Positions 2,395-44,470 of a DNA stretch of 64,000 nt are shown here, piece by piece. The first letter of the stretch is position 1; each line of letters begins with the position of its first letter. The position numbers and the translations under genes are program-made. Origin of the DNA: an uncultured Pseudoxanthomonas sp. (GTDB taxonomy: Bacteria > Pseudomonadota > Gammaproteobacteria > Xanthomonadales > Xanthomonadaceae); the NCBI GenBank assembly GCA_946479745.1, contig CAMLGZ010000017.1:14437-78436 (forward strand), in the 5' to 3' direction. The notes below the pieces were generated by a model, which saw nothing but the letters and a program-made list of their open reading frames with translations, was not told where the DNA came from and did no database searches.

Positions 2395-2587
2395 TTTTCC
2401 TTCTCCCTCCGGGAGAAGAGCCCGCCCCGTACTTGATACGGGGTGGCGCGCAGCGACGGACGCTGCGAAGCAAGCACCCTTGGGTTGTGAGGGCATGGCA
2501 ATGACTTGCCATCCACCTATCACTACAAACTGACAATCCATGCCCTCATCCGCCCTTCAGGCACCTTCTCCCGAAGGAGAAGGAAAA
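2395..2587. repeat. Dispersed palindromic element, CCTTCTCCC-ended family, copy 1
   Basis: The left end TTTTCCTTCTCCC is mirrored at the right end by GGAGAAGGAAAA. Further in, GGCGCGCAGCGACGGA on the left pairs loosely with CCTCATCCGCCCTTCAGGC on the right. A small extra hairpin, CCCCGTACTTGATACGGGG, sits in the left arm. The element fills the slt-cca gap. Related copies lie at 34530-34737 and inside putA at 40945-41087. Confidence 0.75.
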
Positions 2588-17918: not shown

Positions 17919-17937
17919 CTACTGGATAGGGCGCGTT

Positions 17938-18003
17938 GTAGGAGCGACATAAGTCGCGAAGAGGATTTACCGGTAACCCGTTCGCGACTTACGTCGCTCC
18001 TAC
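17938..18003. repeat. GTAGGAGC-ended palindromic repeat (AAGTCGCGAA subtype)
   Basis: GTAGGAGCGACATAAGTCGC and its mirror GCGACTTACGTCGCTCCTAC flank a ~26-nt loop. The same subtype occurs at 23928-23983. It lies between the convergent hexosaminidase and VanZ-like genes. Confidence 0.85.
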
Positions 18004-23193: not shown

Positions 23194-23931
23194 ATGTCCC
23201 CGACCTCTGTCGCTCTGATCACCGGCGGCGCCCGCCGTATCGGCGCGGCCATCGCCCGACGCCTGCATGCACAGGGTTACGATCTGGCGTTGCATTACCG
23301 CGGGTCGGCTGCGGAAATGCAGGCGCTGGCGGACGAACTGGAATCGGTGCGCAGCGGCAGCGTGCTCACTCTGCAAGCGGACCTGTCTGAGTTCGACCGC
23401 CTGCCCGAACTCGTGGCCAGGACGGTCGGGCGCTTCGGACGGCTCGATGCGCTGGTGAACAATGCCTCCGCTTTCCAACCGACGGCCATCGGAACCACCA
23501 CGCCGCAGCAGTGGGACGCGCTGTTCGCTTCAAATGCGCGCGCGCCGTTCTTCCTCGCCCAAGCCGCCGCACCGCACCTGAAGGCGTCGCAGGGCGCCAT
23601 CGTCAACCTGGTCGACATCTACGCGGAAAAACCGTTGGCCGGGCACACCGTTTACTGCATGGCCAAGGCGGCCCTGCTGATGGCGACGAAATCGCTGGCG
23701 CTGGAACTGGCGCCGGAAGTGCGCGTCAACGGCGTCGCACCGGGCGCGATTCTGTGGCCGGAGCAGGATCACAGCGATACCGCGAAGCAGACCATGCTCG
23801 GACGCACGCCGCTGGCGCGCACCGGCACGCCGGAGGAGATCGCCGAAGCCGTGCGCTGGTTGTTGCAGGACGCCACCTACACCACCGGCCAGGTGATCCG
23901 CATCGACGGCGGGCGCACGCTCGCCGGGTAG
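23194..23931 (+). CDS. folM: SDR-family pteridine reductase (FolM/PTR1-like)
   Basis: The 245-aa short-chain dehydrogenase has ALITGGARRIGAAIARRLH, where the arginine in GGARRIG fits NADPH-dependent pteridine reductases, then NNASAF, the catalytic Tyr/Lys in VYCMAKAALL and GVAPGAILWPE. Family members reduce dihydrofolate or dihydropterins. Location next to folK and folB supports a folate/pterin role. The ATG at 23194 follows AGGAA; an in-frame ATG at 23164 also has a fair GGAG site, so ten more residues are possible. The TAG stop lies in the first bases of a palindromic repeat. Confidence 0.87.
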   Translation: MSPTSVALITGGARRIGAAIARRLHAQGYDLALHYRGSAAEMQALADELESVRSGSVLTLQADLSEFDRLPELVARTVGRFGRLDALVNNASAFQPTAIGTTTPQQWDALFASNARAPFFLAQAAAPHLKASQGAIVNLVDIYAEKPLAGHTVYCMAKAALLMATKSLALELAPEVRVNGVAPGAILWPEQDHSDTAKQTMLGRTPLARTGTPEEIAEAVRWLLQDATYTTGQVIRIDGGRTLAG

Positions 23932-23983
23932 GAGCGACGTAAGTCGCGAACACGTTCTGCATCGCGACTTACATCGCTCCTAC
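23928..23983. repeat. GTAGGAGC-ended palindromic repeat forming the folM stop
   Basis: GTAGGAGCGACGTAAGTCGC is mirrored by GCGACTTACATCGCTCCTAC around a short 16-nt loop. The TAG at 23929-23931 is the folM stop. The same subtype is at 17938-18003. Confidence 0.85.
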
Positions 23984-23990
23984 AGCGCAT

Positions 23991-24500
23991 CTACAACGCC
24001 AAGTGCGATGAATCGGCGGATATGGCTACTATTTCCAGTGAAACCCCGCGCTCCGGCGACTGTGCCCAGAGCTCGCTCAACGTCTTCTTCGAAACTGGAT
24101 CGACGAAACCAGGCGCGATATCGGCCAGCGGTTTGAGCACGAACGCATGCTTCAACTCCGGGCGCGGGATACGCAGGCTACCCGTCCCTTCGATCACCAG
24201 ATCGTCGTAGAACACGATATCGATATCCAACGGGCGGTCACCGAAGCGCGGGCCGCTGCGGTCGCGCCCGTGCGCCTCCTCCAGGGCATGCAGCCAGTCG
24301 TTGAGCGCATGCACGTCAAGGTCTGATTCGATGATCGCGGCCGCGTTGAGGAAGTCGTGGCCTTCGAAGCCGATCGCGGCAGTACGGTAGACCGGCGACA
24401 GGACCAGCGCGCCGAAGCGCACGCGCAATGCGGACACCGCGGAGGCGAGATTCCTTTCCGCTTCCATGTTGCTGCCTAGGCTGAGATAAGCCTTGCCCAC
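23991..24500 (-). CDS. folK: 2-amino-4-hydroxy-6-hydroxymethyldihydropteridine pyrophosphokinase
   Basis: The 169-aa HPPK transfers pyrophosphate from ATP to hydroxymethyldihydropterin in folate synthesis. It starts at a GTG giving MGKAYLSLGSNM. It contains SPVYRTAAIGFEGHDFLNAA, the magnesium/ATP motif RFGDRPLDIDIVFYDD and IPRPELKHAFVLKPLADIAP, all in usual order and spacing. It lies 21 bp downstream of folB on the same strand, so the two enzymes that follow one another in the pathway are probably co-transcribed. Confidence 0.94.
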   Translation of the reverse strand: MGKAYLSLGSNMEAERNLASAVSALRVRFGALVLSPVYRTAAIGFEGHDFLNAAAIIESDLDVHALNDWLHALEEAHGRDRSGPRFGDRPLDIDIVFYDDLVIEGTGSLRIPRPELKHAFVLKPLADIAPGFVDPVSKKTLSELWAQSPERGVSLEIVAISADSSHLAL

Positions 24501-27050: not shown

Positions 27051-27056
27051 GTTTTT

Positions 27057-27169
27057 CTCCTTCCCCTTCAAGGGGAAGGCCGGGATGGGGATGGTTTTCC
27101 CGTCCGATCCCATTGATTCACTTTCGCAGCTACACCATCCCCACCCAACCCTCCCCTTGAAGGGGAGGG
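27057..27169. repeat. CCTTCCCCTTCAAGGGGAAGG inverted repeat element
   Basis: The left end CCTTCCCCTTCAAGGGGAAG is followed by GGGATGGGGATGG. The right end is CCATCCCCACCCAACCCTCC and then CCCTTGAAGGGGAGGG. Each end is itself a hairpin and the two ends are mutually inverted. It fills the gap before the GNAT gene. Confidence 0.75.
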
Positions 27170-34529: not shown

Positions 34530-34737
34530 CCCTTCTCCCACCGGGAGAAGGTGGCGCGTAGCGCCGGATGAGGGAATGGGTTATCAGCTTGTAGTGGAGT
34601 TTCAGCAAGTAGGTTTTTGAACCTAGCTCTGATACTTCGATAACTCTCTTGAATCAATCCAGACTTCCAACTTGCACTAACGCGGATAAGCCATTCCCTC
34701 ATCCGCCCTTCGGGCACCTTCTCCCGAAGGAGAAGGA
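34530..34737. repeat. Dispersed palindromic element, CCTTCTCCC-ended family, copy 2
   Basis: The left arm is CCCTTCTCCCACCGGGAGAA, then GGTGGCGCGTAGCGCCGG and ATGAGGGAATGG. The right arm is CCATTCCCTCATCCGCCC, then TTCGGGCACCTTCTCCCG and AAGGAGAAGG. The arms are ~45 bp each with a ~115-bp centre. It fills the convergent gap between the DUF2909 gene and ctaE. Confidence 0.8.
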
Positions 34738-39503: not shown

Positions 39504-39641
39504 GTCGCCACCCGCGCCGTAGCTGTCGCGGAAAACCGCTAAATGGTAGCTCCCGTGCCGCAATGCGGCAAGCCGAAGGGGGTTCTCGCGGGTTCGCCAC
39601 GCACTACACTAGGCGGCTCCGACACGCGCACTGCGGGCCCC

Positions 39642-42600
39642 ATGACCGCCATTCCCCAAGCCGCCAGCGGCCTCGCCGCCGACGCACCGATCCTCTCCGC
39701 CGAAATGCCGGGCGAACCGGCGCCTCTGCGCCGCGCCATCACGGCGGCGTGGATGCGCGACGAAACTGAACATGTGCGCGAACTGCTTGAGCAGGCCCGC
39801 CTGCCCACCGAGGACCAGGCCAAAGCCCAGGCGCTGGCCGCCGACCTGGTGGGCCGGGTCCGCGCACGCGCGCAGGACCAGGGCGCCATCGAGGCCTTCA
39901 TGCGCCAGTACGACCTGGGCAGCGAGGAAGGCGTACTGCTGATGTGCGTGGCCGAGGCGCTGCTGCGCATCCCCGACCAGGACACCGCCGACAAACTTAT
40001 CCGCGACAAGCTGGGCGACGCGGACTGGAAGAAGCACATGGGCGAAAGCGACTCGCTGCTGGTCAACGCCTCCACCTGGGGCCTGATGCTGACCGGCAAG
40101 CTGGTCAGCCTGAACGACCTGACCCGCCACGACGTGCGCGGCGCCTTCAAGCGCCTGGTCGGCCGGGTGGGCGAGCCGGTGATCCGTCTGGCCGTGCGCC
40201 AGGCGATGCGCATCATGGGCCACCAGTTCGTGATGGGCCGGACCATCGCCGAGGCGCTGACCCGCAGCCGCAAGGGCGACAACGCCAACTACCGTTATTC
40301 GTTCGACATGCTGGGCGAAGGCGCGCTGACTTCGAAGGATGCGGCGCGTTATCTGGAGGCTTATCGTCAAGCCATCCATGCGATCGGCAAGAGCGGTCCG
40401 TTCGCCGATGTCTTCGCCGCCCCGAGCATCTCGATCAAGCTGTCCGCCCTGCACCCGCGCTACGAACACGCCAAGCGCGCGCGCGTCATGGCCGAACTGG
40501 CCCCGGGCGTCCTGGAACTGGCGCAACTGGCCAAATCCTACGGCATCGGTTTCACCATCGACGCCGAGGAAGCCGATCGCCTGGAACTGTCGCTGGATCT
40601 GATCGAGGCGACCTTCTCGGACAAATCGCTGGATGGCTGGGAAGGCTACGGCCTGGCCGTGCAGGCTTATCAGAAACGCACGCCGTACGTGATCGACTTC
40701 CTCGCCGACCTGGCCCGCCGCGTCGGCCGGCGCATGCCGGTGCGCCTGGTCAAGGGCGCGTACTGGGACGCGGAAGTGAAGCGCGCGCAGGTGGAAGGCC
40801 ATCCGGGCTATCCGGTGTTTACGCGCAAGCCGAATACCGATGTTTCTTACTTGGCGAATGCGCGAAGGATGTTTGCCAATATCGATGCTTTGTATCCGAT
40901 GTTCGCTACGCATAACGCGCAGACGATTGCGGCGATCCGCAGCCTTTCCCTTCTCCCATCGGGAGAAGGTGCCCGTAGGGCGGATGAGGGCATGGATCGT
41001 CAGCCTGTAGCGAAACTTTCCGGACAAGTTATTCCCCCTCCCTCATCCGTCGCTTCGCGCCACCTTCTCCCGGAGGGAGAAGGGAAACCAAGCTTTGAAT
41101 TCCAGAAACTCCACGGCATGGGCGATGACCTCTATGCCGAAGTGATTCCCGCCGACCGCCTGGGCGTGCCGTGCCGCGTATACGCGCCGGTAGGTTCGCA
41201 CGAGGACCTGCTGCCCTACCTGGTGCGGCGCCTGCTGGAAAACGGCGCCAACTCCAGTTTCGTCAACCGCATCACCGACGAAAACGTGGCCATCGAAGAC
41301 CTGATCCGCGACCCGGTGGAAACCGTGTCCGCGTTCGACTCCATCCCGCATCCGCGCATCCCGCTGCCGGTGCAACTTTTCCAGAACCAGGCGCCAAGCC
41401 TGAGCACCAACAGGAAGAATTCCATGGGCGCCAACCTCGCCAACGATCAGGATCTGCGCGCGCTCGCCGAACAGGTCAACGCCGCCTTCGCACAGGCCGG
41501 TCCGCACGGCTGGCGCGCTGCGCCGCTGGTGCCGGGCGCGGTGCTGTCCACGCGCGCGCTGCCGGTGACCAACCCCGCCGACCGCCGCCAGACCGTCGGC
41601 GAATGGCATGCTGCCGATGCCGCCATCGTCGAAAAAGCCCTGCAGAACGCGGTTGCCGCGCAAGCCGGCTGGGACCGCACGCCGGCCGCGGGACGCGCCA
41701 CGATCCTGGAGCACGCCGCCTCGCTGCTGGAAGCGCGCATGCCCGAATACATCGCGCTGTGCGTGAAGGAAGCCGGCAAGACCATTCCCGACGGCGTGGC
41801 CGAAGTGCGCGAGGCGGTCGACTTCCTACGCTACTACGCTGCCCAGGCGCGCGCGCAGTTCGGCGCGCCCGAACGCTTGCCCGGCCCCACCGGCGAATCC
41901 AACGAACTGCAGCTGCACGGCCGCGGCGTGTTCGTATGCATCAGTCCGTGGAATTTTCCGCTGGCCATCTTCCTGGGCCAGGTCGCAGCCGCACTGGCCG
42001 CCGGCAACAGCGTGATCGCCAAGCCGGCAGAGCAGACCAACCTGATCGGCCATGCGGCGGTGAAGCTGCTGCACGAAGCCGGCGTGCCGGAGAACGTGGT
42101 CCAGTTCCTGCCCGGCGACGGTACCGTGGTCGGCGCGGCGCTGACCAAGGATCCGCGCGTGGCCGGCGTGGCCTTCACCGGCTCCACCGACACCGCGCGT
42201 GCCATCAACCGCGCCATGGCCGCACGCGACGCGGCTATTGGCGTGCTGATCGCCGAAACCGGCGGCCAGAACGCCTTCATCGCCGACTCCTCCGCGTTGC
42301 CGGAACAATTGGTCAAGGACGCCATCGGTTCGGCCTTCACCTCCGCTGGCCAGCGCTGTTCGGCCGCGCGCGTGCTGTTCGTACAGGAAGACATCGCTGA
42401 CAAGGTGATCGGCATGCTGGCCGGCGCGATGGACGAATTGAAAGTCGGCGACCCCGGTTTGCTCTCCACCGACGTGGGCCCGGTGATCGACGCCGACGCC
42501 TTGCAGCTGCTGCAAGACCATGCCGCGCGCATGGACAAAGAAGCCAAGCCGATCCGGCGCGCGCATACCGACGCCTCGGTCGCTCACGGCACCTACTTCG

Positions 42601-42995
42601 CGCCCGGCGCCTGGGAACTGCATTCGCTGGACCAGCTGCACAAGGAAGTCTTCGGCCCGGCCCTGCATGTGGTGCGCTGGAAAGGCGAGGAGCTGGACAA
42701 GGTCATCGATGCCATCAACGCCACCGGCTACGGCCTGACCCTGGGCGTGCATTCGCGCATCGACGAGACCATCGACCGTATCGCCGCACGGGTGAACGTC
42801 GGCAACGTCTACGTCAACCGCAACCAGATCGGCGCGGTGGTCGGGGTGCAGCCGTTCGGCGGCCAAGGCCTTTCCGGTACCGGTCCCAAGGCCGGCGGCC
42901 CGCACTACCTGCCCCGTTTCGCTACCGAGAAGACGGTCACCGTGAACACCACCGCAGCCGGCGGCAACGCCTCGCTGCTGACCTTGGGCGATTGA
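39642..42995 (+). CDS. putA: Bifunctional proline dehydrogenase / P5C dehydrogenase with in-frame repeat insertion
   Basis: The 1117-aa enzyme oxidises proline to glutamate. After a helical arm there is no ribbon-helix-helix DNA-binding domain. The FAD-linked PRODH barrel spans residues ~150-560 (SIKLSALHPRYEHAK, VRLVKGAYWDAEVK, FATHNAQTIAAI, EFQKLHGMGDDLY). The aldehyde dehydrogenase domain spans ~620-1100 (SPWNFPLAIFLGQVAAALAAG, LIAETGGQNAFI, and AGQRCSAARVLF with the catalytic Cys). Residues ~435-482, between AAIRS and FEFQ, come from a palindromic repeat (40945-41087) that reads through in frame; relatives have only a short loop here. The start follows no strong ribosome site. Confidence 0.95.
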   Translation: MTAIPQAASGLAADAPILSAEMPGEPAPLRRAITAAWMRDETEHVRELLEQARLPTEDQAKAQALAADLVGRVRARAQDQGAIEAFMRQYDLGSEEGVLLMCVAEALLRIPDQDTADKLIRDKLGDADWKKHMGESDSLLVNASTWGLMLTGKLVSLNDLTRHDVRGAFKRLVGRVGEPVIRLAVRQAMRIMGHQFVMGRTIAEALTRSRKGDNANYRYSFDMLGEGALTSKDAARYLEAYRQAIHAIGKSGPFADVFAAPSISIKLSALHPRYEHAKRARVMAELAPGVLELAQLAKSYGIGFTIDAEEADRLELSLDLIEATFSDKSLDGWEGYGLAVQAYQKRTPYVIDFLADLARRVGRRMPVRLVKGAYWDAEVKRAQVEGHPGYPVFTRKPNTDVSYLANARRMFANIDALYPMFATHNAQTIAAIRSLSLLPSGEGARRADEGMDRQPVAKLSGQVIPPPSSVASRHLLPEGEGKPSFEFQKLHGMGDDLYAEVIPADRLGVPCRVYAPVGSHEDLLPYLVRRLLENGANSSFVNRITDENVAIEDLIRDPVETVSAFDSIPHPRIPLPVQLFQNQAPSLSTNRKNSMGANLANDQDLRALAEQVNAAFAQAGPHGWRAAPLVPGAVLSTRALPVTNPADRRQTVGEWHAADAAIVEKALQNAVAAQAGWDRTPAAGRATILEHAASLLEARMPEYIALCVKEAGKTIPDGVAEVREAVDFLRYYAAQARAQFGAPERLPGPTGESNELQLHGRGVFVCISPWNFPLAIFLGQVAAALAAGNSVIAKPAEQTNLIGHAAVKLLHEAGVPENVVQFLPGDGTVVGAALTKDPRVAGVAFTGSTDTARAINRAMAARDAAIGVLIAETGGQNAFIADSSALPEQLVKDAIGSAFTSAGQRCSAARVLFVQEDIADKVIGMLAGAMDELKVGDPGLLSTDVGPVIDADALQLLQDHAARMDKEAKPIRRAHTDASVAHGTYFAPGAWELHSLDQLHKEVFGPALHVVRWKGEELDKVIDAINATGYGLTLGVHSRIDETIDRIAARVNVGNVYVNRNQIGAVVGVQPFGGQGLSGTGPKAGGPHYLPRFATEKTVTVNTTAAGGNASLLTLGD
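40945..41087. repeat. Dispersed palindromic element, copy 3, inside the putA coding sequence
   Basis: TTTCCCTTCTCCCATCGGGA begins the left arm and GGTGCCCGTAGGGCGGATGA continues it. CCCTCATCCGTCGCTTCGCG, CCACCTTCTCCCGGAGGG and AGAAGGGAAA form the right arm. Length is 143 bp. It belongs to the same family as 2395-2587 and 34530-34737 and is translated in putA without a stop codon. Confidence 0.88.
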
Positions 42996-44256: not shown

Positions 44257-44318
44257 GAAATCGTCGGCAGAAATAAATGGCTATTCGGATTCCGGCATGA
44301 GATGCCGCCGTTGTTTTT

Positions 44319-44470
44319 CCTCTCCCCTTGTGGGAGAGGATGCCCGGAGGGCAGGAGAGGGGAGCGTGAGCGCAGCGAGCGTGCTTTTTCGCTTCCGCTT
44401 CAAAGGTACCGAGTGCAGACCAGAAGATTAAAAGTCGACCCCTCCCCCAGCCCTCGGCCACCCTCTCAGC
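44319..44470. repeat. CCTCTCCCCTTGTGGGAGAGG repeat element
   Basis: The left end is a hairpin, CCTCTCCCCTTGTGGGAGAG, followed by GGCAGGAGAGGGG. The right side has CCCCTCCCCCAGCCC and CCACCCTCTC in inverted orientation. It is a weaker, degenerate member of the palindromic element group. Confidence 0.55.

Follow-up and report, generated by a model that had tools for sequence, protein, structure and literature searches.

Introduction

How does a palindromic repeat come to lie in frame inside the proline dehydrogenase domain of PutA, and is it a single accident or one state of a site that is filled again and again? The question is raised by 64,000 nucleotides of DNA from an uncultured Pseudoxanthomonas sp. 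(GCA_946479745.1, contig CAMLGZ010000017.1), the whole of which is called the window below. In-frame palindromic repeats are mostly described gene by gene in the parts of the literature available to us (PMC3733652, PMC10969869, PMC2229807). Here dozens of genomes show the states of a single loop, which is empty in some and holds fresh, half, swapped or worn-looking inserts in others, and a second protein shows a like pattern. We consider it very probable that selfish repeats enter a tolerant loop and are translated there, and that they later decay and give way to others through insertion or recombination; this is the explanation that we prefer.

Features of the window:

39543..42995, + strand: putA, bifunctional proline dehydrogenase / P5C dehydrogenase (ORF, Pfam and PDB alignment)
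40945..41087, + strand: family A palindromic element, in frame; element and edges together give about residues 468-517 of the ORF
40949..40969, + strand: left terminal hairpin, CCTTCTCCC-ATC-GGGAGAAGG
40971..40990, + strand: left second hairpin, GCCC-GTA-GGGC, then GGATGAGGG; belongs to the end module of 75 ends
40991..41039, + strand: element core; closer to family A copies elsewhere in the genomes than to the four other putA inserts compared
41063..41083, + strand: right terminal hairpin, CCTTCTCCC-GGA-GGGAGAAGG
2395..2587, no strand assigned: family A copy, intergenic by the ORF list; two-ended element at 2399-2583
34530..34737, no strand assigned: family A copy, intergenic by the ORF list; two-ended element at 34531-34736

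Results

The insert occupies a helix-to-strand loop of PutA

The putA ORF (39543-42995, + strand) encodes 1150 amino acids without a stop codon across the element. The initial annotation, which had reported a palindromic element at 40945-41087 in frame within the proline dehydrogenase domain, was right in coordinates and in frame. The residues that it gave for the insert, 435-482, do not suit the 1150-aa ORF, in which the insert lies at about 468-517, and would fit a start 33 codons downstream. It gave about 48 extra residues; the net gain over an empty loop is 44 codons (58 versus 14 residues).

The insert lies in the proline dehydrogenase barrel, after a helix and before the next strand. The Pfam Pro_dh match is split in two, with the better stretch ending at residue 468, and in the best PDB alignment (3haz) the query passes from 468 to 510 while the chain passes from 408 to 407. 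Hence the solved chain has no residues for that stretch, which is most of the insert, in agreement with the earlier statement that known PutA enzymes are short here. In the AlphaFold model, which is of moderate quality (mean pLDDT 67, pTM 0.67) and has PutA structures, including S. meliloti PutA, as its top Foldseek matches, the insert stands between helix 459-469 and strand 519-522, with pLDDT <50 at residues 474-513. However, pLDDT is <50 at 285 PutA residues in all, and low confidence is therefore not particular to this loop. In a beta/alpha barrel, helix-to-strand loops lie on the face opposite the active site. The PutA loop probably tolerates extra residues, so that insertions would survive there.

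Among 64 aligned PutAs, lengths between invariant residues 463 and 519 spread over up to 85 residues, and the second most variable stretch, counted from the first invariant residue on, is 609-624 with a spread of 27. The invariant residues of this alignment, including R562, R563 and E566, are retained in the window PutA, whose best relatives in the genome collection are from Pseudoxanthomonas and then Xanthomonas. An assembly error or a pseudogene is hardly credible as a source of the insert, since the frame is open over 1150 codons, the invariant residues are kept, and loops of this sort recur in many sequences obtained independently, among them the genome of the isolate P. japonensis DSM 17109; on the open frame and the conserved residues we reject a frame error or pseudogene. 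Judged from the sequence, the putA insert is probably translated.

Family A is a dispersed palindromic repeat

The inverted arms of the putA element (40945-40971 and 41061-41087) are 27 nt each and 93% complementary, and arm to arm the element measures 135 nt, a multiple of three. Folding of the strand gave -84 kcal/mol; shuffled sequences averaged -50.2 (z = -7.8), and none of 200 folded as well. Five Rfam matches were found within 40800-41200 of the window, all below the gathering score, and a known structured RNA was accordingly rejected. The two further copies reported by the initial annotation, at 2395-2587 and 34530-34737, are both real and two-ended, and the three copies share their ends as claimed: the window holds five exact copies of CACCTTCTCCC, all within these three elements. 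With up to one mismatch the motif occurs seven times in the window against 0.9 expected, and 0 of 100 shuffles had as many.

From the window and 76 loci (L081-L108, L139-L186), which are best-scoring matches and not a random sample, 75 ends were compared. Their end module reads, in order, TT(C/T), CCTTCTCCC-N3-GGGAGAAGG, a short stretch and GGATGAGGG. The short stretch is mainly T-GCCCGAAGGGC, or T-GGCGCGAAGCGCC and variants; a stem of at least 4 bp is possible in 68 of the 75 ends, a count made without a shuffled control, so pairing is seemingly kept while the sequence varies. Before the ends, T has a frequency of 0.96 at -2 and 0.85 at -3. A GTAG or CGTC tag at the hairpin end is not conserved among the 75 ends, and a hairpin pattern with a four-base loop had no match in the window, the actual loops being of three bases. 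In common with MITEs, family A has terminal inverted repeats, is shorter than about 300 bp and is too short for a transposase gene.

Matches to family A (E <= 1e-4) were found in 36 of 38 genus genomes, up to 48 per genome, many of one end only; these counts depend on the candidates scored and include self-matches. The 49 two-ended copies measure 106-211 nt, and their length is divisible by three in 15. Of their 294 frames, 129 are open, and 35 are both open and in a copy of length divisible by three. Thus some copies, though fewer than half, could keep a reading frame with no repair needed, among them the 135-nt putA copy.

Relatives carry empty or otherwise filled putA loops

We took 30 putA loci of the genus, representing 30 of the 38 genomes, and 29 gave a loop, the exception being a distant PutA (L138). 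The alignment of related PutAs proposed with the initial annotation did yield empty sites: the loop is short, with 14 residues, in 22 of the 29 loci, and L114, L003 and L027 are examples of relatives with a short loop. A recognisable element is present in five, of family A in L109, L110, L112 and L137 and of family B in L111; the remaining two loops are degenerate (L113) and mid-length (L136). The loop of L114 is empty though its protein is 97% identical to that of the window over query residues 517-1150. Between L001, with an insert, and L003, which is empty, flanks on both sides are 83-100% identical per 100 nt, and the short loop alone differs. Some 30 nt of the empty loop itself are also different, which indicates a replaced stretch, not a clean insertion or duplication. 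The net length had been held to be a multiple of three, which is correct, and to have been brought into frame by a target duplication or small indel; no such event is needed, because the element measures 135 nt and a stretch is replaced at the empty sites.

Family B has no arms in common with family A and is a separate dispersed repeat. Among the candidates scored, those matching the family B query numbered 79 in G040 and 96 in G002, and G013, G008 and G033 gave none; a shorter query matched in 12 of 38 genomes. A typed family B pattern had no match in the window. The genome with family B in its putA (G040) is rich in B, as is G002, whose degenerate loop has the 3' end of the B insert; among other B-rich genomes, the loop is empty in G025 and mid-length in G011. 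Abundance of family A does not predict filling either, as A matches (1-46 per genome) are present in 21 of the 22 whose loop is empty.

In a wider protein search, 7999 candidates were scored, and among the best 120 of 7892 matches the 119 readable loops had 14 to 99 residues; the query contained the insert region, and hence this list of homologues is biased to filled loops. The A-type loop peptides read LLPxGEGARRADEG...SVASRHLLPEGEGK and LLPxGEGARRADEG...PSPQPLSRGERG, others are single hairpins (LLPxGEGK) or PSPxGRG forms, and the family B peptide, EKRETRNEKRVEAG...SSFLSTRSS, is unrelated to those of A. At the same PutA loop, other Lysobacteraceae have other A forms, half-elements, family B, degenerate stretches or nothing, and a loop of more than 14 residues is common to several lineages. 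With different repeats or none at this place in relatives, the loop resembles a slot that is repeatedly filled by such repeats. The initial annotation had proposed that unrelated but equally long segments in all close relatives would speak against an insertion; unrelated segments of similar length do exist in some relatives (L111, family B), and since segments of the L111 type are dispersed repeats themselves, they widen the finding and do not refute it.

Insertion and recombination probably both contribute to the mosaic

A PutA tree was built with the loop cut out, by a quick search and with SH-aLRT support only. From 201 rows, 196 remained after removal of 5 without a readable motif, 179 after removal of 17 with a core of <=600 aa, and 149 after merging of near-duplicates. 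On this tree the A label requires 26 changes (18 forced by starred branches), a count that mixes subfamilies and remnants and also includes allele transfer, because label A is set by broad peptide motifs. The short label requires 10 changes (6 forced), B 5 (3 forced) and mid 15 (12 forced). Clustering on the tree exceeds that in shuffles for the labels A, short and B; it does not for mid (68 of 500 shuffles as low). The clade around the window is mixed for A and B.

Cores of the elements were compared by raw alignment scores, the cores of L109 and L024 still containing part of the end module. The window core scores 33 against the IcmF copy of G040, 31 and 28 against two other genomic copies, 26 against its own copy at 2399, and no more than 15 against any of the four other putA inserts compared. 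Moreover, the best protein match over the window insert region (P0002) is not the nearest relative on the tree. These scores and this match indicate that the window lineage acquired its own copy, or an allele from elsewhere; recombination may thus have brought in the window insert, or the insert may predate its lineage.

If one old insertion had been inherited and had diverged, all loops would descend from a single element. The inserts of L109 and L110 are indeed mutual best matches and the two best for L001, and loops longer than 14 residues recur in several lineages. Such a history is nevertheless highly improbable, given that the tree places empty sites within groups of filled ones and forces 18 changes for A and 3 for B, that family B is unrelated in its arms and separately dispersed, and that the window core is closer to other genomic copies than to the putA inserts compared. 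We rejected a single inherited insertion on the forced tree changes, the dispersal of B and the core matches.

The flanks bear on another reading, namely that the mosaic is mostly allele exchange: after a few insertions, short putA segments would have passed between species by homologous recombination. Across the window and the 29 genus loci, the filling always goes with the flank, YEH standing at 22 of 22 empty loops and FEF at 8 of 8 others. The empty L114 has outer flanks nearest to the filled L109 and window (0.91-0.97), and in the 100 nt left of the site the six loci nearest to it are all empty (0.83-0.85), which suggests that its empty allele was brought in by recombination. Likewise, L111 (family B) has L113 as its nearest locus in these 100 nt (0.91) and L110 beyond them on the left (0.92); the degenerate loop of L113 has its 3' end in common with B, and the B-like loops of both may be one insertion that moved. 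According to these flank data, filled and empty alleles move by local recombination, and true insertions will therefore be fewer than the changes on the tree. However, allele exchange alone is unable to make inserts as unlike as A forms, half-elements and B, and the best matches of the window core among the copies compared lie outside putA. Hence we regard exchange as the main source of the mosaic as a serious but less probable reading, and prefer repeated entry of repeats into the loop, with recombination contributing to their replacement.

Composition of the inserts

GC3 of the inserts in the window, L001, L109, L110 and L111 is 0.50-0.66, against 0.80-0.91 in their flanks, and values of 0.50-0.60 were also found in L137, L078 (a single hairpin) and L002. 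It is 0.67 in L062, which has no clear element, and 0.68 in L024 against a flank of 0.77. In ten other loops without an intact element it reaches 0.79-1.00, against 0.85-0.97. The series is compatible with a possible course in which inserts, once in place, become shorter and approach host codon use without loss of frame. The ten host-like loops would then descend from elements, and the loops could be placed in an order of age.

In-frame repeats in other proteins and a second slot

Around copies of the element, 20 long open frames were searched for Pfam domains. Six further proteins of related genomes have in-frame repeats, namely PurL, FolC, a YheS-like ABC-F protein, IcmF, HrpA and Mfd. Of the 46 two-ended family A copies outside the window, which again come from best-scoring matches, five are in frame within conserved proteins: FolC (L106), YheS-like ABC-F (L108), IcmF (L159) and Mfd (L166 and L170). 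The PurL insert (L092) is a further A copy, and that of HrpA (L145) is a B copy. Alignments to PDB chains break around the element at query residues 491|562 in PurL, 116|162 in FolC, 498|548 in IcmF, 439|498 in Mfd (L166) and 333|373 in ABC-F, and that of HrpA has a gap over the B peptide; the Mfd insert of L170 was assessed by comparing its sequence with that of L166. As seen by eye, the hairpin is read in at least three frames, giving LLPxGEG (PutA, PurL, IcmF), PSPxGR (FolC, Mfd) and LSPRERG (ABC-F).

In the Mfd proteins of G031 and G037 (L166, L170), the element is seemingly at the same place, in another frame (PSPSGRRWREA...). Open frames with no Pfam match, such as L088, L093, L098 and L100, were left out of the count of genes; a GC3 frame scan lent no support to these four. 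In a GH35 gene (L086), two aminotransferase genes (L089, L103) and lpdA (L182), the element lies upstream of the domain, and these were not taken as in-gene copies.

The IcmF loop, the linker preceding DRSLLTLRQRY, is a second slot. Among 29 loci (L188-L216) it is shortest in L214 and L216, and most others have varied repeat-like peptides, as judged by eye. Besides the IcmF copy, the insert of L201 has 3, 3 and 2 near-full-length matches in G001, G023 and G031; its total matches, many of them one-end, are 47, 41 and 27, and some of the one-end matches are family A ends because the L201 insert has an A-type end module. The insert of L206, by eye a GTAG-type inverted pair, has 16 matches each in G036 and G022. 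Together with family A, these two inserts indicate at least three dispersed kinds in the IcmF loop, two of them related.

Repeated filling of two proteins, together with the very strong fold of the element, could be taken to mean that the insert is kept for a function, as an RNA hairpin tuning putA expression or as a peptide altering PutA activity or partners. This is very improbable: 22 of 29 related loci do without an insert, the same place is taken by unlike peptides and half-elements, and GC3 is host-like (0.79-1.00) in the ten longer loops that lack an intact element.

Discussion

In the explanation that we prefer, that of selfish repeats in a tolerant loop, the 143-bp element would be one copy of a dispersed repeat that is palindromic and non-autonomous, of the REP/MITE kind. 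Lying in frame in putA, it is most likely translated, and would give the proline dehydrogenase barrel a disordered loop on its surface. The PutA slot of Lysobacteraceae would have been filled, emptied and refilled by A forms and at least one unrelated repeat family, partly through new insertion and partly through recombination with other alleles, and old inserts seem to shorten and drift to host codon composition with the frame kept. The repeats would be neutral and would be moved by a mobilising enzyme, and turnover would divide between transposition and recombination.

Rickettsia palindromic elements (RPEs), to which the initial annotation had likened the element, were reportedly described by Ogata et al. 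in 2000 and 2002. In the parts of the reviews available to us, RPEs are palindromes of about 100-150 bp, found in frame in unrelated conserved genes and between genes, with inserts thought to be tolerated (PMC10969869, PMC2229807, PMC3733652). The comparison holds for the mode of action: family A is a palindrome of 143 bp in the window, dispersed over 36 of 38 genomes, with A-like inserts in PutA, PurL, FolC, ABC-F, IcmF and Mfd and family B in HrpA. The likeness is one of mode, and we claim neither kinship in sequence nor membership for family A. In contrast to RPEs, its host belongs to a free-living gammaproteobacterial lineage, and here one loop is filled by unlike families in different species.

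In-frame repeats had been called unusual for free-living gammaproteobacteria. This does not agree with REPs reported inside ORFs of free-living bacteria: the part of the source available to us lists REP singles and dimers in Opitutus terrae, Thioalkalivibrio, Thauera, X. oryzae, S. maltophilia and others, and points to recB, in which X. campestris and X. oryzae have different REPs at roughly one position (PMC3733652). Together with RPEs, these precedents mean that the kind of phenomenon is already known, as far as the portions of these papers at hand indicate. Unlike GTAG/CGTC REPs, family A has no conserved GTAG or CGTC end, although one IcmF insert (L206) resembles them in its inverted pair. 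The present case differs from intragenic REPs in the refilling of two proteins over dozens of genomes, with PutA states placed on a tree. In the sections of the sources available, ERIC, Correia elements and the QMITEs of Coxiella are likewise described as short repeats that are non-autonomous, have open frames and are fused to genes in frame (PMC2229807, PMC5896051). For family A, comparison with empty putA sites shows a replaced stretch and no clean duplication. A limited search of open-access literature returned no report of translated palindromes in Pseudoxanthomonas or Lysobacter. What is new here is the host group, an element without GTAG/CGTC tags, and two fixed loops whose filling, emptying and replacement are densely documented.

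These natural orthologues make an old question testable, namely whether a repeat peptide is tolerated noise or a source of new protein sequence. Some loops in Lysobacteraceae might be cassette slots, in which resident hairpin ends serve as a target or recombination handle for in-frame swaps between unlike repeat families, feeding new disordered peptides to core enzymes such as PutA and IcmF. We hold this to be a speculative possibility and rather doubtful; if true, it would supply peptides at a rate visible between sister species. For annotation, the present inserts are a warning that LLPxGEGARRADEG and PSPQPLSRGERG repeats exist inside real enzymes.

Other repeats were noted beside family A. 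The PurL of G001 (L092, P0122) contains, besides its family A insert, a second stretch, GNRESGIGSGQ...FSIPHSPLPIPG. GNRESGIG is (GGGAATC)n translated, and thus a second repeat family is seemingly in frame in the same PurL. GGGAATC repeats of Xanthomonas, in the same bacterial family, are given in the available part of the source as dispersed, mostly intergenic, quadruplex-forming and under-represented in coding DNA (PMC4692102); they are a different repeat from family A.

Within the window, positions 17935-18003 and 23928-23991 have short matches, on both strands, to the IcmF insert of L211. At 27054-27169, between two ORFs, 9-bp hairpins CCTTCCCC...GGGGAAGG and CCCTCCCC...GGGGAGGG stand about 70 nt apart and partly match the IcmF insert of L190. 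Another hairpin, TCCTCTCCC...GGGAGAGGA, stands by itself at 44318-44340, also between two ORFs, and may be a lone repeat end.
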